Assembly (NCBI RefSeq): GCF_001427635.1
Contig: NZ_LMHA01000001.1
Location: forward strand, 1,448,319-1,512,318
Length of the DNA: 64,000 nt
Direction: 5' to 3'
Origin: Pseudoxanthomonas sp. Root65
Lineage (GTDB): Bacteria; Pseudomonadota; Gammaproteobacteria; Xanthomonadales; Xanthomonadaceae
Shown here: in pieces, positions 20,846 to 58,201 of the stretch
Layout of the letters: the number at the start of each line of letters is the position of its first letter
How positions within the stretch are numbered: position 1 is the stretch's first letter
Translations under genes and position numbers: made by a program
Notes under the pieces: model-generated
Database searches by the model: none
Told to the model about the DNA's origin: nothing
Seen by the model: only the letters and a program-made list of their open reading frames with translations

Positions 20846-20881
20846 AAAAAAGGGGCCGGCAGTCCCCCGACTACCGGCCCC
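20846..20881 (-). terminator. Strong hairpin with A-run: minus-strand terminator or mnmG leader stem
   Basis: AAAAAA at 20846-20851, then GGGGCCGG (20852) and CCGGCCCC (20874) with an inner AGTC/GACT stem. Read on the minus strand it is a textbook intrinsic terminator followed by TTTTTT. No minus-strand gene lies upstream of it, so it either ends an unannotated antisense transcript or serves as a stable stem at the 5' end of the mnmG mRNA. Confidence 0.6.
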
Positions 20882-21060
20882 TCGGCATCCCCGGCGTGCG
20901 CATGGCTGGCCCCTGTTCCAATTACCAGCCCGGCGCCCCTGGTCGCTTGCCACGACGGGTGCAGGGGGATACAGCAGGAAGCGTGCCAACTTCCCCGCCG
21001 CCGTGTGCGGGTGCCACCCCCGATCCCACGCCTTCCCGTCTTCGCCACCGAACCCGTCCC

Positions 21061-46782: not shown

Positions 46783-46989
46783 GTGGAAATCGACAACCCC
46801 GCCGACATCGCCGAGAAGATCGCCGCACTCAGGACCGAGCACCGTGACCTGGACGACGCCATCGTGCGCCTGGTGGAGGACGGGGATGCCGACGAGGTGG
46901 CCATCAAGCGGCTGAAGAAGCGCAAGCTGTGGCTGAAGGACTGCATCGCGCGGCTGGAGAGCGCGCTGATCCCGGACGAACCGGCCTGA
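46783..46989 (+). CDS. YdcH-like DUF465 protein
   Basis: 68 residues, a typical DUF465 length. It is a predicted helical hairpin: one helix ADIAEKIAALRTEHRDLDDA, a short acidic loop (EDGDADE), then IKRLKKRKLWLKDCIARLE. These small basic-ended coiled-coil proteins are widespread and uncharacterised. The GTG at 46783 is preferred because it begins the conserved helix; an ATG 36 bases upstream would add a non-conserved tail. Confidence 0.82.
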   Translation: MEIDNPADIAEKIAALRTEHRDLDDAIVRLVEDGDADEVAIKRLKKRKLWLKDCIARLESALIPDEPA

Positions 46990-47140
46990 CGCCACGGCGT
47001 CGCTCCGGCCGGACGGTCGAAGCTCGAATCTGACGCTGGGCGTCACCCGCGGCGGTGCGATTGCCGTCCATCGCGCCCATCGCGAGCGTCGGAACGCCGC
47101 ATGGCGGCCGTTTCCGGCCCGCACGCGGTCTTGCGCGCAG

Positions 47141-47157
47141 TTGGCCCGATGCTTGCT
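47141..47157 (+). promoter_or_regulatory. Sigma-54 (RpoN) -24/-12 promoter
   Basis: TTGGCCCG-ATGC-TTGCT matches the RpoN consensus TTGGCACG-N4-TTGCT at all but one position, with GG at 47143 and GC at 47155, the required 12-base step. The predicted start is near 47168, about 100 bases before the acyltransferase ATG. GC-rich inverted words upstream (around 47090-47120) could hold an activator site. Confidence 0.65.
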
Positions 47158-47268
47158 TCATAGCCGGGTGTGGGGATTTCCCCGACCGACTGACCGTCTG
47201 CCGTCCTGCCGGCGCCGCGGTTCCCAACGACAAGCCGTTGCGCTGACGCGCGGTGGCGAGGGAGTGGC

Positions 47269-47988
47269 ATGGAGCAGGACAAGCCGTTCAACCACCGGAT
47301 GCCGGTGTCCGCCCGCGAGGCGCGGATCGCCTCGGCGTCGGCCGACGCGGCGCTGGCCGGCATTGGGCTGCGGATGCTGCGCATCCTGCCAGGCGAGCCG
47401 CTCGGCGATGTGCCGCGCCTGCGTCGTGAAGTGTATTTCTACGAACAGGGCCAGTTCGGCGACCGCAGCCGGCGCGTCACCGACGGCCTGGATGCGTGCG
47501 GCACCACGCTGGCGGTGGAGAAGGGCACGCAGGCGATCGCCACGCTGCGGCTGCACGACTTCTCGTCGCTGGCGGTGCAGGTGGAGTACGGCAGCCTGTT
47601 CCAGATCGACGACTTCGCACGCACCTGGCCGCTGTCGCAGGTGGCGGTGGGCACGCGCTTCGCCGTGCAGGCCGACCAGCGCAACAAGCCGGTGGTGGAC
47701 CGGCTGATGGAAGAGGTCTACCGCTGGGCGCAGGAATCGCGCATCCAGTTCTGCCTGATCGCCTGCGAGCCGTTCCTGCATGGCGTGTTCGAGCACTACG
47801 GCTTCCGCGAATACCTGCCGCCGGCGATCCTGCCCGGCGGCGTGGACCTGCTGCGCATGGTGCTGGTGATGGAGGACGAGCCCTACCTGTCCGAATGCGG
47901 CTCGCCGCTGCACCGACTGATCCGCGAGCCCGCGCGCGCGCTGCCTGCGAAAGCGTGGTTGACGCGGTCGTTCCACGCCATGACCTGA
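47269..47988 (+). CDS. GNAT-fold N-acyltransferase, autoinducer-synthase/FeeM-like
   Basis: 239 residues. The core (about residues 40-205) resembles the acyltransferases related to N-acyl amino acid synthase FeeM and LuxI: RLRREVYFYEQGQFGD, then VTDGLDACGTTLAVEKG, the WPLSQVAVGTRFAV strand, and EVYRWAQESRIQFCLIACEP with FEHYGFREYLPP. LuxI-type Arg/Phe/Trp signatures are not clearly conserved, so it is more likely an N-acyl amino acid or acyl-transfer enzyme than a homoserine lactone synthase. GGGAGTGG before the ATG is a Shine-Dalgarno. A sigma-54 promoter lies upstream, and a LuxR-type regulator gene faces it 13 bases away. Confidence 0.75.
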   Translation: MEQDKPFNHRMPVSAREARIASASADAALAGIGLRMLRILPGEPLGDVPRLRREVYFYEQGQFGDRSRRVTDGLDACGTTLAVEKGTQAIATLRLHDFSSLAVQVEYGSLFQIDDFARTWPLSQVAVGTRFAVQADQRNKPVVDRLMEEVYRWAQESRIQFCLIACEPFLHGVFEHYGFREYLPPAILPGGVDLLRMVLVMEDEPYLSECGSPLHRLIREPARALPAKAWLTRSFHAMT

Positions 47989-48000
47989 GCCGGAACGGCC

Positions 48001-49119
48001 TCAGCAGACCGCGTTGAGGGCGCCCAGCAGGCGGACCAGTGCGGGCTGACTGCGTTCGCCGGTCTTGTCGAACACCACTTTCAGCCGCGTCTGCGCGGTG
48101 GATATCGCCACGCCGCAATCCTGTGCCGCCAGACCCAGGTCAGCGTGCTGCAGTAGCGCCACTGCCAGCCGGCGTTCGGACTCTGTCAGGCCGAACAGAT
48201 GCTGCAGGGCGTGCTCCATGCGTGCCGGGTTGGCCGCAGCGCCGGGTTGCGCGAAGACCAGCAGCGCCGCATCGCCAGCGAGCAGCGGCGGAGCAAGCGG
48301 ATGCGCGGTGATCGCCAGCGCACCGATGCCGGGCGCCTGCACTACCAGCTTCTCCACATCCCCAACGCGGCCATCCGTTCGCGCCAGCGTGGCGCGCGCG
48401 AGCAACTGCTGCAAGGCGGCGTCCTGCCAACCAGGTGCTGACAGTCGGCCCGACACGCGATGCAGCACGCCCAGGCCGAGCAGGCGTTCCCCGGCGGCAT
48501 TGGCCCGCAACACCTGGCGATTGGCGGACAGGGTGAACACCGCCATCGGCGCCTGTTCCAGTGCCACCTCCAGCGAGTCCACGCGCTGCTGCAGCAGGTC
48601 GAGGCGCCGCATGATGGCGTAGGCATTCACCCAGTGGGGCACCACACGCTTGAACAAGCCGAGTTCATCCTCGTTGAACAGGCGATGGCGGTCGTCGCGG
48701 CAGATCGACAGGGTGATGGAGTTGGCGCCGTCGTAGTGACCCACCGCCGCCACCTGCTGCTCCACGCCGAACTGCCGGTAATAGGCGTTGTAGACGTCGG
48801 TGCGGCGCATCTGCGCGTTGGGCAACAGGTCTTCGGTATTGAACACGCGGCCGGTGGCGAGGTGCGGTGTCGCACGGCTGATCCAGGGGTCGATGTTGAG
48901 GTCGAGCGACTGCAGCTCCATTGCCACCTGCCGGGGATCGACGCCGGCCACGCGCGCCACGCTGCCGCGACCACATTGCACGTCGTGCCCCAGAATGGCG
49001 GTGATGTGGCTGCCCGTGGACTGCCCGAGCAGGAGGTTGAAGTCGTCCAGCCGGTCCGGGTCCAGGATCGACTCGTACAGCGGCTCGAGCACGCGCGCGA
49101 GGGCGTGGTCGTCGTTCAT
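48001..49119 (-). CDS. LuxR-type transcriptional regulator with PAS-like sensor
   Basis: 372 residues. The C-terminal HTH (about residues 310-370) follows the LuxR pattern: LTESERRLAVALLQHADLGL, a recognition helix STAQTRLKVVFDKTG, then ALVRLLGAL. The sensor half includes a PAS-like segment (about residues 185-300, APMAVFTLSANRQVLRANAA) and an N-terminal segment lacking autoinducer-binding Trp/Tyr signatures. AGGGGG stands before the ATG at 49119. It is tail-to-tail with the acyltransferase. Its target is unknown. Confidence 0.85.
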   Translation of the reverse strand: MNDDHALARVLEPLYESILDPDRLDDFNLLLGQSTGSHITAILGHDVQCGRGSVARVAGVDPRQVAMELQSLDLNIDPWISRATPHLATGRVFNTEDLLPNAQMRRTDVYNAYYRQFGVEQQVAAVGHYDGANSITLSICRDDRHRLFNEDELGLFKRVVPHWVNAYAIMRRLDLLQQRVDSLEVALEQAPMAVFTLSANRQVLRANAAGERLLGLGVLHRVSGRLSAPGWQDAALQQLLARATLARTDGRVGDVEKLVVQAPGIGALAITAHPLAPPLLAGDAALLVFAQPGAAANPARMEHALQHLFGLTESERRLAVALLQHADLGLAAQDCGVAISTAQTRLKVVFDKTGERSQPALVRLLGALNAVC

Positions 49120-49442
49120 CGGATGCCCCCTGTGGTGGTGCGCGGATCGCGTCCGGCCCATCTTCACCGCAGTTAATTACGAAATGCGCCCGAACACAAG
49201 CCGAATCGCGCCCTTGCGTCAAGTCCGGAACGGGAGTGCGCGCTTCTGTCGCAGGTCGCTATCGTTCCCCGAAGGGGCGTGATCGCCGCATGCGGCGGAT
49301 CGCACGGAGCCATGGGGAGATGGCGACCGGGGGATGCGCGGACTCAAGGAAGACGAGGGAAGTGCCGATAAGGCTGCGAGGGAATGCGCCATGGCACCGC
49401 GTGGCGCCAATGCACCCCGACCGTCCCGTCCGGAATCCGATC
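49120..49442. other. 323-bp divergent intergenic region
   Basis: This lies between the LuxR-type gene and the exported-protein cluster. On the minus strand TAATTA near 49175 could be the regulator's -10. No clear promoter for the plus-strand cluster, no terminator and no convincing small gene was seen. Upstream ATGs at 49311 and 49391 give no conserved-looking peptide. Confidence 0.5.
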
Positions 49443-51416
49443 ATGCCGCTGCTCCGCGCCCTCGTCGTCCTCGCCTGCCTGACCATCGGCCTGCCCTTCG
49501 CTCACGCGCAGGACGGGGCGCCGGATATACCCGCTGTCGACGCCGCCGCATGGGGCCCCTACGCTCGGCTGCTGGAGCGCAGCTGGCAACTCGGCGAAGG
49601 CTATCGCGTGACTTGGGAATGGTTGTCGCCTGGCCAGGAACTCCGCGAGCAGTGGATCAATCCGCACGACGGCAAGGTGGTCCAGACCAACGTCATCCGA
49701 CCGGGCGACACGCCAGGCCGACTCCAGCTGACCTCGTCGTTGCTCGGCATGAATCTGAAGTGGCAGGGGCGCGTCGCTTCAGCGGATGAAGTGGTCTGGG
49801 CGCGCGAGGGCATGGTCAAGCTGCCGTACCGACTGCGCTTCGCTGACGACGGCCAGGTGCTGTACGAGGGCGTCAAGCTCAAGGACGAGCTGGTGACGGA
49901 CGTGAAGTACATGCACGTGATGAAGCCGATGGCGCTGGACGCCGCGGCTCCGGCGGTCGTGGCGGTCGCGATGACCGCCGACGCTCCGCTTGGCACCACG
50001 GACGCGCCGGTGACCGCAGCAGGCGTCGAAGCGCCCGCGTCCCCCACCACATTCGCGCAGGCGGACGCGCCGCTGCAGACGCCTATGCTGGCTTCAGAGC
50101 AGATCATCACCGGCCTGGGACCGCTGTCGGCGTTTGCGGGACAAACGTTCACGTGGTGCACCCCCTCCCAGGTCGGCGGCAAGAACTGCTACATCCGCTT
50201 CATCGAAACAGGCGACGGCCTCCAGATCTGCTTCTTCCCGGCGGACTTCAGCACCAGCTGCGAATTCACTTACGCGGCCATGCCTTCCGACAAGAAACCG
50301 GGCGAACTGAAGCTGACGAACGTGACCTCCCGGAAAGGGGAGTACTACGTCAGCACGGGTGCGCGCTGGAAGGAGAGCGGTCAGGTGCTCGAGTTCACTA
50401 CGCGCAAGAAGTACTACGAGAGCCTGCTGACGGAAGCCATCAAGCTGACCATGGCGCCGCACACAGGCTGGGTGAGCAACGCCGATTTCTGGGTGGCGCG
50501 CGACGGGACACTGAGGTGGCGCAGCTACGGCTGGACGGCAGGCATGCTGGGCGGCAAGTCCGACGCCTACGACACGACCTACGAGCTGAAGCCGGTGACA
50601 CCGGCGCTTGTACAGGAGTACAGCACCATCTACGCCAGTTGGAAGGTCCAGGGTGACTACCAGCGCCAGATCGATGCCCAGCGCCGTCGTGAAGAGGAGG
50701 CGCAGCGCGAGGCGAACTTCGCCGCGTTCATGGGCGGTCTCAATGCGGTGGCGACTACCGTCCAGCAGGACATGGCCGAGGTCGACCGCGCCAACCAACG
50801 TGTCGCCGATGCACGCCGCGCGATGGAAGAAGCGCAGGCGCGGGAGCAGGCGCGCCAGCAGGCCGAGCAGGCGGAACAGCTGCGCGCGCGACAGCAAGCG
50901 CAGCAGAGCGCCCTCGCACAGCAGCAGACCAATGCGCAGGTCGCCGAGCAGGCGCGACAACAGGCGGCGCGCGAGGCCGAGCAGCGGCGCGTAGCGCAAC
51001 AGCAGGTTGCCGACCAGGCACGCAGGAAGCAGAAGGAAGAAGCCGAGCGCAAGCGCCAGGCCGCCGCGCAGAAGCTGGCCGAAGACCAGGCGCGGCAGCG
51101 CCAGCAACAGGAATGGCAACAGAGCCTGCTGCAGGCCCGCAACAGCCTGCGCCTGCGCGCCGACATCTGCCTCGGCGGCAGCGGCCGCTATTACGTCATC
51201 GGCCCGAAGACCAGCGTCAAAGGCTGCGCGACCGTGCATTACGAGGCCCGCTGCACGGGAACCCCCCAGGGCGCCGGCGTGCAGGGCACCCAGCACAACT
51301 ACATCGGCGGCAGCTGCATGGGCGTGGGTGACGCGATCGCCATCCCCGGTTCGCCGTTGTCGTGCCCGGTCGAGCAGGTGATCGTGCGCGTGACAGACGT
51401 GACGGGGTGCCAGTGA
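49443..51416 (+). CDS. Exported protein with beta-rich halves, Gln/Ala coiled coil and Cys-rich C terminus
   Basis: 657 residues. The signal peptide is MPLLRALVVLACLTIGLPFAHA. Two similar beta-rich regions (about residues 30-155 and 220-400) carry GYRVTWEWLSPGQELREQW-like and GKNCYIRFIETGDGLQICFF-like blocks. A long Gln/Arg/Glu/Ala coiled coil runs from about 410 to 570. The last 90 residues contain six Cys and look like a small disulfide-bonded domain (ADICLGGSGRYYVIGPKTSV). The protein is not recognised. It is first in a run of six co-directional exported genes. Confidence 0.75.
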   Translation: MPLLRALVVLACLTIGLPFAHAQDGAPDIPAVDAAAWGPYARLLERSWQLGEGYRVTWEWLSPGQELREQWINPHDGKVVQTNVIRPGDTPGRLQLTSSLLGMNLKWQGRVASADEVVWAREGMVKLPYRLRFADDGQVLYEGVKLKDELVTDVKYMHVMKPMALDAAAPAVVAVAMTADAPLGTTDAPVTAAGVEAPASPTTFAQADAPLQTPMLASEQIITGLGPLSAFAGQTFTWCTPSQVGGKNCYIRFIETGDGLQICFFPADFSTSCEFTYAAMPSDKKPGELKLTNVTSRKGEYYVSTGARWKESGQVLEFTTRKKYYESLLTEAIKLTMAPHTGWVSNADFWVARDGTLRWRSYGWTAGMLGGKSDAYDTTYELKPVTPALVQEYSTIYASWKVQGDYQRQIDAQRRREEEAQREANFAAFMGGLNAVATTVQQDMAEVDRANQRVADARRAMEEAQAREQARQQAEQAEQLRARQQAQQSALAQQQTNAQVAEQARQQAAREAEQRRVAQQQVADQARRKQKEEAERKRQAAAQKLAEDQARQRQQQEWQQSLLQARNSLRLRADICLGGSGRYYVIGPKTSVKGCATVHYEARCTGTPQGAGVQGTQHNYIGGSCMGVGDAIAIPGSPLSCPVEQVIVRVTDVTGCQ

Positions 51417-51501
51417 GGACGACCACCGGCAACCCGTTTCGCGCATCCTCTTCGCCGTAGACCCACGTTCGCCACCGCCTTCAGCAAGGACTTTGCCCGT
51501 G

Positions 51502-52575
51502 ATGCCATTTCGCTGCGCCACCCGATCCCGCTCGAAAAGCGCGGGCGTGATACTGCTTGTCGTGCTGGCCGCCGCCGGTCGGACCGCAGATGCAGAGGAG
51601 AAGCCGCAATGGCTCCGTGCGGTCGAGGCGGCGAACGAACTAACGTACAAATGCTTCGGCGAAGAGAACGACGCCGACTGCAAGGCGATGATCGGCCATT
51701 ACGACAAAGCGATGGCCGCGCCGGACGCGGACAACGCGATCCGTCATGAGGTGTTCAAGCATCGGATGAATGCCATCGCCGCGCGTGGCGGCAACCTCGT
51801 CGAGGCGGGCGACATCGCACAAGCGCTGCCGCTGCTCCACGCAGGACACGCCGAGATGCGGACGCACCTCGACGGCGGAAAGCATGCGCACACGGTGATC
51901 GACAACCTGCGCCTGCAAGGCTGGTTCCTGGAGGCGTTGGTCGCGTCCGGCGACCTGGAGAATGCGGAAACGGTGGTGGACCTGCCACGACAGCTGGTGC
52001 CCCAGTACTACGAGCTGCTCGCCAAATCCAGCGGCAACGAAAGAACGATGTCGCTGATCACCGAAGGCGTGGTACGCAGCGAGGAACTGGAGACCAAGTA
52101 CGGCAACGCGCTGGCAGCACGCGCCGATGCATGGGGGAGCGACGCTCGCGCGAAGGTGGCGCGCGGCCGCGCCATCGTGGCGTACCGCAATGCACTGAAG
52201 TGGCTGGAGCGTGGCGATGCGGAGGGCTGGACCATGCCGTTCCAGGGTACCAACGCGATCCGTTTCGCGGAACTCAACAACGCGCTCGGCAAGGCATTGT
52301 TCGCGTCCGGTGATCGCAAGGGCGCGGTCGAGGCGCACAAACTCGCGTTTGTCGCCGCCAGCTGCAAGGGGTTCGACGACGGCTCGCTTCATGACTTCGA
52401 CAAGATCACCGCGGCCAGGCCGTGTCGGGAAGCGGTGGCCGGCTACATGGCGGCATCCGGCGAGACGCAGCGCCTCGCCAAGGACGCGGCGGAGACGATG
52501 TACCGGCAGCAGATGGAGTTGTACGGAAAAGACATCAGCGATCTGCTGCGCGCAGCGCCGAAGCAGGTGGATTGA
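51502..52575 (+). CDS. Exported helical-repeat protein
   Basis: 357 residues. A signal-like N terminus (SAGVILLVVLAAAGRTADA) is followed by helical, TPR-like repeats (AGDIAQALPLLHAGHAEMRT, NALGKALFASGDRKGAVEAH). Two Cys pairs are scattered. The start is uncertain: AAGGA lies 11 bases before the ATG at 51502, and a GTG directly precedes it. Function unknown; it probably belongs to the exported-protein run, 85 bases after the first member. Confidence 0.7.
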   Translation: MPFRCATRSRSKSAGVILLVVLAAAGRTADAEEKPQWLRAVEAANELTYKCFGEENDADCKAMIGHYDKAMAAPDADNAIRHEVFKHRMNAIAARGGNLVEAGDIAQALPLLHAGHAEMRTHLDGGKHAHTVIDNLRLQGWFLEALVASGDLENAETVVDLPRQLVPQYYELLAKSSGNERTMSLITEGVVRSEELETKYGNALAARADAWGSDARAKVARGRAIVAYRNALKWLERGDAEGWTMPFQGTNAIRFAELNNALGKALFASGDRKGAVEAHKLAFVAASCKGFDDGSLHDFDKITAARPCREAVAGYMAASGETQRLAKDAAETMYRQQMELYGKDISDLLRAAPKQVD

Positions 52576-52756
52576 GCGGGGTCGATCGGCGAGGCGTGCT
52601 CGCCGGATACCGCGTCTTCCAGGTAGACCTGTTCACTGGTGTGGCGCGATCAATGGCCAACGACGGATCTGGCGTCTGGCGCGACTTGCCCGGCGTTCGC
52701 AGAACATCAGCAAATATCAAGACGAGACAGCGCCCCAAGGGCGATAGGAAAACCGA

Positions 52757-53350
52757 ATGAGCATCGCCAAGAAGATCTGCGCTCTCGCCCTGCTGGTTGC
52801 CCCGTTCCAGGCCCATGCGCAACAGCAGACGGTGGAAGGCGCCCACCTGTTCCTCTCGAAAGTGGTCGAACAGGGCGCCACCACCTTCGAGATCGACAGC
52901 GGGAACGGCTGGAACAACATGAGCGCGGACAAGTCGTACTGCCGCTACTACAACTACGACACCGCATCCGGCATCAGGGCCGGCGAGTATGGCTGCAGTG
53001 ACTACAAGACGTCGACTCATATGGTTGCGGACTTCAAACTGACGTCGATCATCAAGTTGACGCGATGCGCCTCGCAGATCTCGACGCCTGAAGTCCACGC
53101 AAAGGAGATCGAAGTCAACGACGGCCCGAAGAACTACTGGGCCGTGCGTCTGCCTTACCGCAAGCCTTCGTACGGCATCGACTGGGACAAGGTGGCCGAG
53201 GTCAAGCAGGAAGGCAGCCGTGTGGTCGTACGCGGCATCAAGCCGGACATCCGCCTCGGCCTCGCTTCCGAAGCCCTGGCTATACGTGTGGCCTACGCGA
53301 TGGAGTTCCTTCGCACGGAATGCGACGCCACGTCGGGGACGGGGTTCTGA
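52757..53350 (+). CDS. Exported protein, paralogue A
   Basis: 197 residues with signal peptide MSIAKKICALALLVAPFQAHA. The mature part starts HLFLSKVVEQGATTFEIDSG and ends RVAYAMEFLRTECDATSGTG. The same layout and nearly the same ending occur in the gene at 54219, so they are paralogues. AGGA precedes the ATG. The stop and the next ATG overlap by one base (TGATG). No known family recognised. A 181-base gap with no clear promoter precedes it. Confidence 0.72.
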   Translation: MSIAKKICALALLVAPFQAHAQQQTVEGAHLFLSKVVEQGATTFEIDSGNGWNNMSADKSYCRYYNYDTASGIRAGEYGCSDYKTSTHMVADFKLTSIIKLTRCASQISTPEVHAKEIEVNDGPKNYWAVRLPYRKPSYGIDWDKVAEVKQEGSRVVVRGIKPDIRLGLASEALAIRVAYAMEFLRTECDATSGTGF

Positions 53351-54222
53351 TGCGCAAGGCTCTTTCCCGCGCATCTGCCAGGAACGGCGCATGGCTTGCG
53401 CTTGCGCTGTTGATGGCGCCGTGTTTGGCGCAGGCCCAGATTTCCATCGATGCTTCCTGTTTCACCAGCTCCCTTCGCGCCGAGGGGAGGACTGTCGACT
53501 TGGTGCGACACGGCGCCCCCGTCAGCTATCCGATCCCGACCGAAGAGTACAACGCGCGATATTGCGTCACCCGAGAGAAGTGCGTTGCCCTGGGCTACTG
53601 CAAACCTGCCTCGCCTGCAGAACAGGCAGCCGCCGACAAGCTCAACCCAGGCGCCGCAGCCGAGCGTGCGCGGCTTGAGCGAGAGCGCCGTCAAAAGGAG
53701 GCGCAGGCCGAACGCCAGCGCCAGGCCGCCGAGGCCGAGCGCAATCGCAAGGCGGCCGAAGTCGCCCGCGAAACCCGGCGCCTCGGCAGCCATCGCGAAG
53801 CGGAGGCGCGGCGGCTGGTGGAGATGCGCGAAGCGGCGGCGAAGGCACGCGGTGGTCCCGCGTCGCGTGCACGCCCTCCTGAAATCGCAGGGGAGCCGCG
53901 CAAGGTCTGCACCAGTGCGCCCCTCCGGACCACACTCACCTCAAGGTTCAAGGTGGCCGAAGGTGATGCCCGCGCAGACCTGGCGCGGGATGCGGCCAGC
54001 TTGTGCAGGAACAGCACGGGAGATGCCGCTTACAGCACGGAAGCGGTCTCCTGCGTGCGCGAGGACAGGTCGGCCTGGGCGCAGATGCCCGTCGCGCAGC
54101 TGGCCAAGCGACCGGCCAACGACCCGCCCAGGGTGGAGTTCAAGTGCTCAGCGCCCATCGTGTGCACCGCACCCAAGGAGACCTGCAAGACCGTGGGTAC
54201 CGTCCATAGCTCAGGCCAATGA
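53350..54222 (+). CDS. Exported protein with charged coiled coil, between the paralogues
   Basis: 290 residues starting at MRKALSRASARNGAWLALAL with a signal peptide ending in PCLAQA. Residues of about 100-175 form a strongly charged Arg/Glu/Ala coiled coil. The N-terminal and C-terminal parts each carry several Cys pairs (for example KCVALGYC and KVCTSAP). The 1-base and 4-base overlaps on both sides tie it to its neighbours. Function unknown. Confidence 0.72.
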   Translation: MRKALSRASARNGAWLALALLMAPCLAQAQISIDASCFTSSLRAEGRTVDLVRHGAPVSYPIPTEEYNARYCVTREKCVALGYCKPASPAEQAAADKLNPGAAAERARLERERRQKEAQAERQRQAAEAERNRKAAEVARETRRLGSHREAEARRLVEMREAAAKARGGPASRARPPEIAGEPRKVCTSAPLRTTLTSRFKVAEGDARADLARDAASLCRNSTGDAAYSTEAVSCVREDRSAWAQMPVAQLAKRPANDPPRVEFKCSAPIVCTAPKETCKTVGTVHSSGQ

Positions 54223-54920
54223 GGGGCCATGTCATGAAACGGGAAAACATCACCCAACCCGATCCGTCCGCATCGAACAGGCGGTTTGTCCGCGGCGGCA
54301 TGCTGCTTGCGATGTTGTGCTCGCCGCTTGCGGTGCATGCACAGGCCGAGCAGACACCCGCAGGTGCGCAGGATTTTCTCGGCAAGGTGCTGGCACAGGG
54401 CACATCATCGTTGAACGTCAATACCAGCAAGGGATGGAACCGTGTGGGTGCCGCAGAGGCCGAACGCTGCATGTGGCAGGAGGAGTTTGGCGGCTTCTTT
54501 GCAGGGATGCAGCGCGTGTGGAAATGTACCGGCAGAACCATGCCGGGCTTCCTGTCCGACGACGACGCCACCATGTGGGTCGCCATTGGCGCGTGGACGC
54601 CACGTGGTGCGAGCGCGGACGGCGAGTGCAGGACACGCGTGCAGGTGGACAAGAAGGGTTCGGTGATGCGCCAGTTCAAGGGGCGCTATGACCGGAAGGC
54701 GGCTGAATTCACCGCATGGTCGGGTCCCCAGAGCGGTCCTTTCGTCATCGACTGGACGAAGGCGGCGGGTACGACCTCCACTGGCCGTGAGGTCCACTTG
54801 AAGGGCGTCACCCCGGGCATGTCCTTCGTGTTGCCGTCCGAGGACATGGCGGTGCGCGTGGCGTATGCGATGGAGTTCCTGCGCATGCACTGCGACGCGA
54901 CCGCGAGCACCGGATTCTGA
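54219..54920 (+). CDS. Exported protein, paralogue B
   Basis: 233 residues. A longer N terminus with KRENITQPDPSASNRR precedes a signal-like helix (GGMLLAMLCSPLAVHAQ). The mature part has DFLGKVLAQGTSSLNVNTSK and ends RVAYAMEFLRMHCDATASTG, matching paralogue A at both ends. The middle has a CMWQEEFGG motif absent from A. The ATG overlaps the previous stop (ATGA); an ATG at 54234 is also possible. Function unknown. Confidence 0.72.
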   Translation: MRGHVMKRENITQPDPSASNRRFVRGGMLLAMLCSPLAVHAQAEQTPAGAQDFLGKVLAQGTSSLNVNTSKGWNRVGAAEAERCMWQEEFGGFFAGMQRVWKCTGRTMPGFLSDDDATMWVAIGAWTPRGASADGECRTRVQVDKKGSVMRQFKGRYDRKAAEFTAWSGPQSGPFVIDWTKAAGTTSTGREVHLKGVTPGMSFVLPSEDMAVRVAYAMEFLRMHCDATASTGF

Positions 54921-54925
54921 CGCCA

Positions 54926-55489
54926 ATGATAAACCGCGCGCGCGTCGCCTTCGTCGTTGCTCTCACCTGCGCGAGCGGCATCGTCCGTGCCGACTCGTGG
55001 GTGCCGCCCAGCGTGAGGGTTGAAGCCAGCGAATCCGGCGAATACCTAGTGCGCATGGAACCTGGCCGGCGTGGACAGCAAGGGTCACGCGCGGTGATCT
55101 ATCGCCACGATACCGCGGCCGACAGCTACCAGAAGCGACTGGTATACGCACTCCCCCATCCGGTATCGCCGGTCGACATCCTGCTGACGGACGACGGCAT
55201 GCTGGTGACCCTCGACGAATGGGCGCAGATGGGACGCGGTACCGTCATCACCGTGCACGGTGCCGACGGCAAGACGACACATCGCTACACGTTGCCGAAG
55301 CTGCTGGGCGACAAGGCCGCCGCTGCCGCACCTTCCACCGTCAGTTCCACCTGGTGGCGCTGTGGCAAGCCTTCACTGATCGGCGGAGGGCACGTGTTGC
55401 GCGTGATCACCTACGACGAAGGCGAATTGCGCGTGGACCTGCGCGACGGCACCGTCGACCACGAGCCCGGCAACGGCCGCTGCCAGTAG
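54926..55489 (+). CDS. Exported beta-rich protein
   Basis: 187 residues with signal peptide MINRARVAFVVALTCASGIVRA. The mature part alternates short strands (GEYLVRMEPGRRG, VDILLTDDGMLVTLDEW) reminiscent of one or two beta-propeller blades. Two Cys occur near the C terminus. It starts 5 bases after paralogue B and ends 18 bases before the convergent plsB. Not recognised. Confidence 0.68.
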   Translation: MINRARVAFVVALTCASGIVRADSWVPPSVRVEASESGEYLVRMEPGRRGQQGSRAVIYRHDTAADSYQKRLVYALPHPVSPVDILLTDDGMLVTLDEWAQMGRGTVITVHGADGKTTHRYTLPKLLGDKAAAAAPSTVSSTWWRCGKPSLIGGGHVLRVITYDEGELRVDLRDGTVDHEPGNGRCQ

Positions 55490-55507: not shown

Positions 55508-58201
55508 TCAGTCCTGCGTGGCAGCAGGCTCGGTGGGCTCGGCAGCCTTGACCGCTTCCGGGCTGACCTTCTCGATGGTGTGGCGCAGTTCGCGGCCGAG
55601 GATGGCCTTGGCGTCGCGCGCCCAGGCATCCAGGCGGTCGTCGAACAGCAGCTTGCTGTTCTCGTCGGGCCATACCAGCTTGAGTTCGCGCAGCTTCTGG
55701 ATGAAACCGCGGAACAGGGTCTTGTCGAAGAACTCCGGCGCGGCCGGTGCGTACAGCAGGCTCAGGCGCTGCGCGGCCTGCTGGCACAGGCTTTCCAGTT
55801 CCGCCGCACCCAGCGTGCCGGGGCCGTTCTTCACCAGCACCGAAATGGCGATGTAGTAGCGCTCGAACGCCTGCTGCAGCGAGTGGCCGATCGCACGCAG
55901 GCGGAACACCTCGTCGGTCTGGCCGGCGCTGCGCGCCAGGATGCCGCCGTCGTCGTCGTTGACCTGCTGCAGCAGGCCTTCGCGGACGAACACCTCGATC
56001 GTGCGTTCCATGCGTTCGGCGAACTCGTCCTCGCTCCACGGCAGGAACAGCTCGGCCTGCAGGAACGGATAGAGCGTGCGGCCCAGCCGCAGCACGCCGG
56101 CGCGGCTCATGCGGCGGTTGTTCTGGAAGCAGCAGGCGATCCACGACGACGCCGTGAACAGGTGCAGCACGTTGTTGCGGTAGTAGCTGAGCAGCACCGC
56201 GGTGTCGTCGTCCACGCTCAGCACGTCGCCCAGCGGATGCTTGATCCGCTGCAGCATGTTGATTTCTTCGGCGTGGGAGATGATGCGGTCGGGCGAGTGC
56301 GGGGTGACGGTGACGCGGTCGGAGTAGGGCAGTTCGGCCAGCAGCACCTTCGACAGCTCGATCTGTGCGATCAGGTCGGCTTCGCCCATCGCGTGCTTGG
56401 GCGTGGACAGCAGCGCCAGCGCCAGCAGGTTGATCGGATTCACGTCGGCGGCGCGGTTGATGTTGACCTGGATCTGCTGCGCCAGCGCGTCGACGATGTC
56501 GGACAGCCACGCGGGCTTTTCCTCTTCGCCCACCGGCGTGCCATCCCATTCGGGCGCATACGTCGCAAGCGCGTCGTTGAGCGGGATCGGCTCGCCGAAA
56601 TTCACCACCACCTGGCCATAGTTCTGCCGCAGCACCTTGGGGATGCCCCACAGCACGGCCCAGATGGATTCCTTCTCCTTCGGCCGGCCGCTCAGTTCGT
56701 CCAGATAGCTGGTGCCTTCCAGCAGCTTTTCGTAACCGATGTAGACCGGCTGGAACAGCACCGGCTTGCGCGGCTGGCGCAGGAACGCGCGCAGCGTCAT
56801 CGAGATCATGCCGCCCTTCGGCGGCAGCAGCCGGCCGGTGCGCGAGCGCCCGCCTTCGATGAAGTACTCCAGCGAATAGCCGCCGGAGACCAGCTGCGCC
56901 ACGTACTCGGTGAACACCGCCGAGTACAGCGGGTTGCCGCGGAAGCTGCGGCGCATGAAGAACGCGCCGCCCTTGCGCAGCAGCGTGCCCACCACCGGCA
57001 GGTTGAGGTTGATGCCGGCGGCGATGTGGGGCGGCACGATGCCGCGTTCGTACAGCAGGTACGACAGCAGCAGGTAGTCCATGTGGCTGCGGTGGCAGGG
57101 CACGTAGACGACTTCGTGGCCCGGCGCGGCTTCCTTGAATTTGTCCAGGTGGTGGACCAGCACGCCGTCGTAGATCTGGTTCCACACGTGGCTGAGCAGG
57201 AAGCTGGCCGAGCGCACCACCGGGTTGGAGTAGTCGGCGGCGATTTCCCAGGCGTAGGCGTGCGCCTTCTTCCACGCGTCCTCGGGCTTGGACTTGTCGC
57301 GACGCGCCTGTTCGGCGATCGCGTCCTTCACCGGCTCGGCGGCCAGCACCTGGTCGACCAGCAGCCGGCGCGTGGACAGGTCGGGGCCGATGACGGCTTC
57401 GCGGATGCGGTGGAAGTGCGTGCGCAGTACGCGCGAGAGTTTGCGGACCGTGCGTTCCGGTTCCAGGCCTTCATCGACCGTGCCGCGCAGCGACACCGGC
57501 GGCGCGAATCGCACGATGGTGCCGCGGCCGTTGAGCAGGATCGCCAGCAGGCGACGGAAGCGGCCGACGATGGCCCAGTTTTCGGAGAACAGCACCGAGA
57601 ACCAGCCGCTCTGCTTGTCCGGCGCGCGACCGACGAAGATCGACACCGGCACCAGCTGCACATCCAGCGCGGGGTTGGCGCGATGCGCCTGCAGCAGCTT
57701 GGCCAGCGAGCCGGAATGGGTCTTGGCGCTGACCTGGTCGGGGATCAGCGTGCTGGCGTTGCGACGCGACAGCGCCACGTAGGCGCGCTTGCGGCCGAGC
57801 GGATTGCCGCCCACCGGCAACGGCATCAGCGGTGAGGGCAGGCCGGCGTCGCGGCAGGCGCGGTCGAGGATCAGCGCGTTCGACAGGCCGTAGTCTTCCA
57901 GCACGTAGCAGACCGGGCGGCCGTCCAGCAGGTCGGCCGGCACGCCGGGTTCGATGTTCAACGCCAGCCACGGATCGGCCAGGCGGCCCAGCAGGCGCGC
58001 CCACAGCGGGCGCTTGGCTTGCTTGGCGGTGCTGTAGGGCGCCATCGGCAGGCCCGCGGTCACTGGCGCATCGTCAGCGATCGCGGCCTCAGGCGAGGCA
58101 TCGTGCGCAGGTGCGTTCGCCGCCGCGGACTTCTTCTCGGGCGGCGTCGGCGTCGGGCCGTCCGGAAACGGCAGGGAGTTCTGTTCAGGCATCGGCCGCA
58201 T
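55508..58201 (-). CDS. plsB: Glycerol-3-phosphate 1-O-acyltransferase PlsB
   Basis: 897 residues, longer than the 807 of E. coli because of an Ala/Pro-rich N terminus. PlsB adds the first acyl chain to glycerol-3-phosphate at the inner membrane. The acyltransferase motifs are VPCHRSHMDYLLLSY near residue 368 and FIEGGRSRTGRLLPPKGG near 455. The long N- and C-terminal helical regions are typical. Starts at 58201 and 58192 (ATG both) are equivalent. A 9-bp hairpin lies 65 bases upstream. Confidence 0.95.
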   Translation of the reverse strand: MRPMPEQNSLPFPDGPTPTPPEKKSAAANAPAHDASPEAAIADDAPVTAGLPMAPYSTAKQAKRPLWARLLGRLADPWLALNIEPGVPADLLDGRPVCYVLEDYGLSNALILDRACRDAGLPSPLMPLPVGGNPLGRKRAYVALSRRNASTLIPDQVSAKTHSGSLAKLLQAHRANPALDVQLVPVSIFVGRAPDKQSGWFSVLFSENWAIVGRFRRLLAILLNGRGTIVRFAPPVSLRGTVDEGLEPERTVRKLSRVLRTHFHRIREAVIGPDLSTRRLLVDQVLAAEPVKDAIAEQARRDKSKPEDAWKKAHAYAWEIAADYSNPVVRSASFLLSHVWNQIYDGVLVHHLDKFKEAAPGHEVVYVPCHRSHMDYLLLSYLLYERGIVPPHIAAGINLNLPVVGTLLRKGGAFFMRRSFRGNPLYSAVFTEYVAQLVSGGYSLEYFIEGGRSRTGRLLPPKGGMISMTLRAFLRQPRKPVLFQPVYIGYEKLLEGTSYLDELSGRPKEKESIWAVLWGIPKVLRQNYGQVVVNFGEPIPLNDALATYAPEWDGTPVGEEEKPAWLSDIVDALAQQIQVNINRAADVNPINLLALALLSTPKHAMGEADLIAQIELSKVLLAELPYSDRVTVTPHSPDRIISHAEEINMLQRIKHPLGDVLSVDDDTAVLLSYYRNNVLHLFTASSWIACCFQNNRRMSRAGVLRLGRTLYPFLQAELFLPWSEDEFAERMERTIEVFVREGLLQQVNDDDGGILARSAGQTDEVFRLRAIGHSLQQAFERYYIAISVLVKNGPGTLGAAELESLCQQAAQRLSLLYAPAAPEFFDKTLFRGFIQKLRELKLVWPDENSKLLFDDRLDAWARDAKAILGRELRHTIEKVSPEAVKAAEPTEPAATQD

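Follow-up and report, generated by a model that had tools for sequence, protein, structure and literature searches.

A palindrome common with pilA suggests PilR control of a FeeM-type N-acyltransferase gene with a sigma-54 promoter in Pseudoxanthomonas

Within the 64-kb stretch of DNA that was analyzed (the window), an N-acyltransferase gene is found in the following setting:

46783..46989, plus strand: conserved upstream gene encoding a DUF465 protein (PF04325), keeping this place ahead of the acyltransferase gene in all 18 named loci
47031..47045, no strand assigned: palindromic enhancer TGACGCTGGGCGTCA (TGAC-N7-GTCA), probable PilR site
47141..47157, plus strand: sigma-54 promoter TTGGCCCG-ATGC-TTGCT, a -24/-12 element
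47269..47988, plus strand: FeeM-type N-acyltransferase, 239 aa
48001..49119, minus strand: convergent regulator with an N-terminal sensory domain, a PAS domain and a probable LuxR-type HTH (domains from model and fold search); a patchy neighbor
49236..55489, plus strand: block of secreted-looking ORFs between the regulator gene and plsB, with four ORFs that lack a Pfam match at E <= 0.01
55508..58201, minus strand: plsB, glycerol-3-phosphate acyltransferase (PF19277 and PF01553), the usual convergent neighbor in relatives

About 7.5 kb, the regulator gene included, lie between the acyltransferase gene and plsB in this genome. Among 30 ortholog loci, plsB is located within 1.5 kb downstream in 23 and the regulator gene takes that place in four, three being undecided. 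ORFs of the secreted-looking block were matched in only two of 18 named loci (L047 and L048), and cross matches on L047 revealed a mutual similarity between the ORFs at 52757 and 54219.

The acyltransferase matched the Pfam FeeM family (PF21926; 31.3 bits, cut-off 27), and the best Foldseek match of its structure model was FeeM (2g0b; E = 9.5e-9, TMt 0.69). A relation to both FeeM and LuxI had been claimed by an earlier, sequence-only reading of this DNA. The first part is confirmed by the HMM search and by the fold; as to the second, no LuxI family model was among the Pfam or NCBIfam matches at E <= 1. In a second structure alignment, FeeM, AHL synthases and small GNAT enzymes obtained similar scores (a tie in Z), and the substrate class is therefore not fixed, with an N-acyl amino acid or a similar amide as the most likely product. 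A PDB sequence search gave no useful result, and the absence of a substrate-specific relative from the VIA-align listing was not counted as evidence. The placement of the gene outside an exosortase system, also part of that reading, held as well: exosortase (PF09721) was found in none of the 38 Pseudoxanthomonas genomes, the control search being positive in one of 14 named genomes.

The gene is present in 34 of these 38 genomes, with the closest relative (G172) at 96% identity. It is missing from G151, G157, G165 (2.6 Mb) and G168 (2.0 Mb), and for the latter two genome reduction is the simpler reading of the loss. A stricter protein search across 149 genomes of the family recovered the gene in six, every one Pseudoxanthomonas. 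Matches to PF21926 occurred in 21 of 198 Xanthomonadaceae genomes, 13 of them outside Pseudoxanthomonas, but on inspection these 13 loci were rejected as orthologs and encode other GNAT-like proteins. No convincing sigma-54 site precedes the gene in any of the 13, one locus (L086) having a weak one.

The sigma-54 promoter ends 111 bases before the ATG at 47269, in line with the distance of about 110 bases given earlier. By itself, a single match to the motif is weak evidence: TGGCNCG-N4-TTGCW with at most one mismatch occurs four times in the window vs. 5.2 expected, and exact TGGCMCG-N4-TTGCW seven times in the genome vs. three for the reversed control. We consider the promoter real because it is conserved across orthologs, where a lone match would mean little. 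GG and GC at sigma-54 spacing are kept before 34 of 34 orthologs (30 aligned and four more); in the 30 aligned promoters TTGGC, G and TTGC are invariant, and the spacer is ATGC or ATGT in 27. The flanking DNA has diverged, with a mean information of 1.79 bits per column in the promoter vs. 0.76 in the remaining aligned region of these 30 orthologs and 1.42 in the best non-promoter stretch of 16 columns. The exact pattern TTGGCCCGATGYTTGC was detected in six of 198 Xanthomonadaceae genomes, all Pseudoxanthomonas and with one copy each. In the group closest to the window, the mRNA leader (47165-47200) contains a GTGGGG-TTTCCCC-like stretch, of which none was seen in the other clades displayed.

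Subclade alignments revealed an additional conserved element, a palindrome at 47031-47045 in the form TGACGC-N3-GCGTCA, 111 bp upstream of the promoter. It is an enhancer that the sequence-only reading had missed, and TGAC-N7-GTCA occurs a single time in the window. When all 4-base dyads with gaps of 0-16 bases were counted within 240 bp ahead of the promoters, without a preset motif, TGAC-N7-GTCA was the top dyad before the acyltransferase gene (27 of 30 vs. 0.06 expected) and also before pilA (25 of 25 vs. 0.08 expected), where the expectations assume independent sequences and the compared genomes are relatives. Its presence in four of four additional orthologs makes it exact in 31 of 34 overall, the exceptions being L032 (one mismatch), L034 and L036. 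The acyltransferase gene has one copy, at -78 to -141. Across 18 named loci (217,724 bases), which overlap with the 38 genomes and are not an independent sample, the dyad was found once in each of 16 loci, always a short way ahead of the acyltransferase gene, and was absent from L060 and L061. A matrix derived from the pilA sites ranked 47031 first of 63,985 window positions, although these sites had been chosen by their likeness to the palindrome and the dyad count is the cleaner test.

The palindrome sequence alone is not diagnostic, since exact TGACGC-N3-GCGTCAC was no commoner than the reversed control in 149 genomes of the family. Within the genus it was present in 27 of 38 genomes, with 58 matches vs. 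30 for the reversed control by our tally. With one mismatch allowed, 28 matches vs. 27 for the control were counted per strand in this genome, and thus only the position of the palindrome is informative.

In this genome, pilR is located directly upstream of the type IV pilin gene pilA, which is preceded by a sigma-54 promoter of its own. For the comparison of pilA promoters, 36 pilR-side regions were taken (none for G165 and G168), of which 25 were counted and 11 dropped. Eight of the latter had no pilin in 1.7 kb (L099, L111, L116, L118, L124, L126, L128 and L132), and three pilin regions had no promoter by the pattern used (L109, L113 and L125), L113 carrying the dyad. By our reading, two exact palindromes 20 bp apart precede pilA in 15 of the 25 genomes, and, relative to the -24 element, pilA palindromes mostly lie near -98/-118 or -208/-228. 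The dyad was found neither at glnA, which was named by eye, nor at the remaining five exact sigma-54-like sites of this genome. For P. aeruginosa, different hallmarks are reported for the sites of PilR (PMC6058289).

Two further sigma-54-like sites were observed. Just downstream of pilA, a second type IV pilin-like gene (L097:3300-3720, minus strand) has a sigma-54-like site of its own, TGGCCCACTACTTGCT. In the window, the Rfam sRNA asX1 (RF02235, 97.9 bits; 20846-20990, minus strand) starts about 13 bases past the end of a sigma-54-like element, TTGGCACGCTTCCTGCT, similar to the promoter and leader of pilA in this genome; TGAC-N7-GTCA is absent from the 300 bp upstream.

From the 58 matches in the genus, 30 palindrome loci were kept for inspection. 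By our reading, 20 of them combine a sigma-54-like site within about 300 bp with a recognizable gene, namely the acyltransferase (13 loci), pilA (4), an MHYT protein (2) or a glycosyltransferase (1); L150 has a site without such a gene, and nine loci have no site. Pfam assigned the gene of L153 to MHYT-GGDEF and that of L163 to family-2 glycosyltransferases, and L158 resembles L153 by appearance. The genes of L153, L158 and L163 are possible further PilR targets, and the set of palindrome-bearing genes suggests a regulon for surfaces and biofilms. Of 30 loci kept from the search of 149 family genomes, two outside the genus (L181 and L193) have the palindrome together with a sigma-54 site and a pilin gene. 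The palindrome is a candidate motif for PilR binding in Pseudoxanthomonas and in at least two further genera of Xanthomonadaceae. L185 and L187, from another genus of this family, have palindrome and sigma-54-like site before a gene whose product, of about 190-220 aa, looks secreted.

The genome encodes four strong and four weak matches to sigma-54 activators. The strong ones comprise one FleQ (Pfam FleQ), one NtrC (NCBIfam, above cut-off), a response regulator that we take as PilR because its gene is directly followed by the type IV pilin gene with a sigma-54 promoter, and a further response regulator (L065) encoded beside an apparent ABC-type permease gene. The name PilR is given by gene position, and no family model names it. 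Since the palindrome is common to pilA, next to pilR, and to the acyltransferase gene, the activator of the latter is likely PilR. The switching by a sigma-54 activator that had been proposed from the sequence is thus supported, and its activator can now be given a probable name.

It appears improbable that another sigma-54 activator (FleQ, NtrC or the L065 regulator) drives the gene and that the palindrome is common with pilA by chance or cross-binding. The palindrome is absent at glnA, which argues against NtrC, and from the L065 region. FleQ control was suggested by a half-similar box upstream in one subclade. Judged by score and frame length, a FleQ-like activator is missing in 10 of 38 genomes; the acyltransferase gene is present in 28 of 28 genomes with this activator vs. 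six of 10 without, and all four gene-less genomes also seem to lack it. In addition, four of the six FleQ-less genomes with the gene have the weaker promoter end TTGCG (L012, L013, L030 and L031), which was also found in two FleQ-bearing ones (L029 and L036). However, these six genomes keep both gene and promoter, which disfavors FleQ, and genome reduction may explain the link, as two of the gene-less genomes measure just 2.0 and 2.6 Mb. In G063, which keeps gene and promoter, no more than three strong activators were counted. Control by PEP-CTERM/PrsR was rejected, given that there is no exosortase and that all four activators stay below the cut-off of the model for the PEP-CTERM response regulator. 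For Xylella, NtrC and PilR are named as the only such activators in excerpts of one study (PMC3224663).

The gene on the other side of the acyltransferase was confirmed to be convergent, with a gap of 12 instead of the 13 bases stated earlier. Its product matches PAS_8 above cut-off, so that the PAS-like domain of the sequence-only reading stands; as the whole sensory part it does not, because the structure model also resembles the ligand-binding domain of VqsR (TMt 0.77) and, in part, VqmA. The top-ranked Foldseek rows were phytochromes with low TM-scores. The LuxR HTH (PF00196) had no match to the protein itself; it is carried by four distant relatives (P0190, P0191, P0193 and P0195), and a helical domain, with helices at 297-370, forms the end of the model. 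By inference, the VqsR-like part would be the N-terminal third. We read the predicted structure as a GAF-like domain followed by PAS and HTH, a protein that may sense a small molecule.

The regulator gene adjoins the acyltransferase gene in four of 38 genomes (G000, G153, G162 and G163), with 84-87% identity of the regulator in the three relatives with the pair, while G149 has only relatives of 30% identity on another contig. Relatives of the two proteins on contigs of equal length suggest that the pair also occurs in P. putridarboris (P0014 and P0144) and on a 9.5-kb contig (P0036 and P0143). The acyltransferase-LuxR pair as a functional unit, as envisaged from the sequence, was not supported by this synteny comparison: gene and promoter persist without the regulator, neither the conserved gene nor its enhancer depends on it, and the LuxR pairing is mostly incidental. 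A two-gene signaling unit, with the acyltransferase as the source of a small acyl molecule and the convergent LuxR-type protein as its sensor, would fit the likeness to VqsR and VqmA and the recurrence of the pair in these genomes and, probably, on the two additional contigs. We nevertheless consider it unlikely, since plsB is what most ortholog loci have in that place, the closest relative included, and since the two genes converge and have no common promoter. The regulator may or may not respond to the acyltransferase product.

We propose that the acyltransferase gene is probably a member of the PilS/PilR regulon, in which PilR, via the palindrome and sigma-54, would drive a FeeM-type N-acyltransferase together with pilA and an amide would be made for life on surfaces. 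The gene family, the conserved promoter and the conserved palindrome common with pilA were observed here. From these we infer PilR as the binder, co-expression, the acyl chemistry and the surface role. PilS would activate PilR, and phosphorylated PilR would bind the palindrome at 47031-47045 and contact sigma-54 RNA polymerase at 47141-47157, switching on the acyltransferase gene when pilA is on. The enzyme would then use ACP- or CoA-bound fatty acids to acylate an amine, with an amino acid as the most likely acceptor, and the resulting amphiphilic amide would serve life on surfaces. More tentatively, PilS/PilR, a system responsive to the amount of pilin and perhaps to contact with a surface, might directly drive an undescribed N-acyl amide synthesis across the genus; the product could be a contact-triggered lipid signal or surfactant made with pili, in some species sensed by the adjacent LuxR-type receptor.

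There is a small chance that the enzyme instead catalyzes the first step of a membrane aminolipid pathway unrelated to surfaces. The frequent position of plsB next to the gene would fit, and excerpts of one study assign the first step of aminolipid synthesis to GNAT enzymes (PMC11631085). On the other hand, plsB is convergent and not in one operon with the gene, an O-acyltransferase for the second step was not recognized beside it, and one would not expect a lipid with a housekeeping role to be controlled in the manner of pili. Acylation of a protein (pilin or another pilus component) and not of a free amino acid is the least probable alternative: the enhancer common with pilA and the close scores of FeeM and of protein and peptide GNAT enzymes would allow for it, but FeeM is both the best match in Foldseek and the family assigned by Pfam, and of the four genomes without the gene one (G151) has pilR-pilA.

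Excerpts of the literature describe the function of N-acyl amino acids in living bacteria as poorly understood (PMC11631085), PilR of P. aeruginosa as controlling genes besides pilA (PMC6058289), and pilAB of Azoarcus as responding to cell density via a small hydrophilic factor that is said not to be an AHL (PMC3262810). In the literature searched, with subscription papers mostly outside it, there was no report of PilR control of such an acyltransferase gene and no paper that brings together PilR, type IV pili and N-acyl amino acids. The enhancer common with pilA gives one N-acyltransferase a likely regulator and a physiological setting. If PilR control is true, it would tie a putative fatty signal or lipid to life on surfaces.

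Compared with known systems, the enzyme is closest to the FeeM/Nas N-acyl amino acid synthases (2g0b; PF21926), with which it has the HMM family and the best fold match in common, at 15% identity to FeeM over the structure. It differs from LuxI-type AHL synthases (LasI, EsaI, TofI and BjaI) in lacking a LuxI model match at the threshold used. Related N-acyl amino acid synthases are reportedly linked to PEP-CTERM/exosortase systems (Craig 2011, by its title), whereas here a pilus-type enhancer is found and no exosortase. The PilR-dependent sigma-54 promoter of pilA has the same TGAC-N7-GTCA upstream of its -24/-12 element, often as two exact copies in place of the one at the acyltransferase gene. 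In Lysobacter, a related genus, PilR is said to control type IV pili and an antifungal antibiotic with c-di-GMP (Xu 2021, by its title). PilR is likewise tied to the output of a specialized metabolite there; by that title, control in Lysobacter goes with c-di-GMP, whereas in Pseudoxanthomonas the enzyme gene would itself be under direct control of the enhancer.
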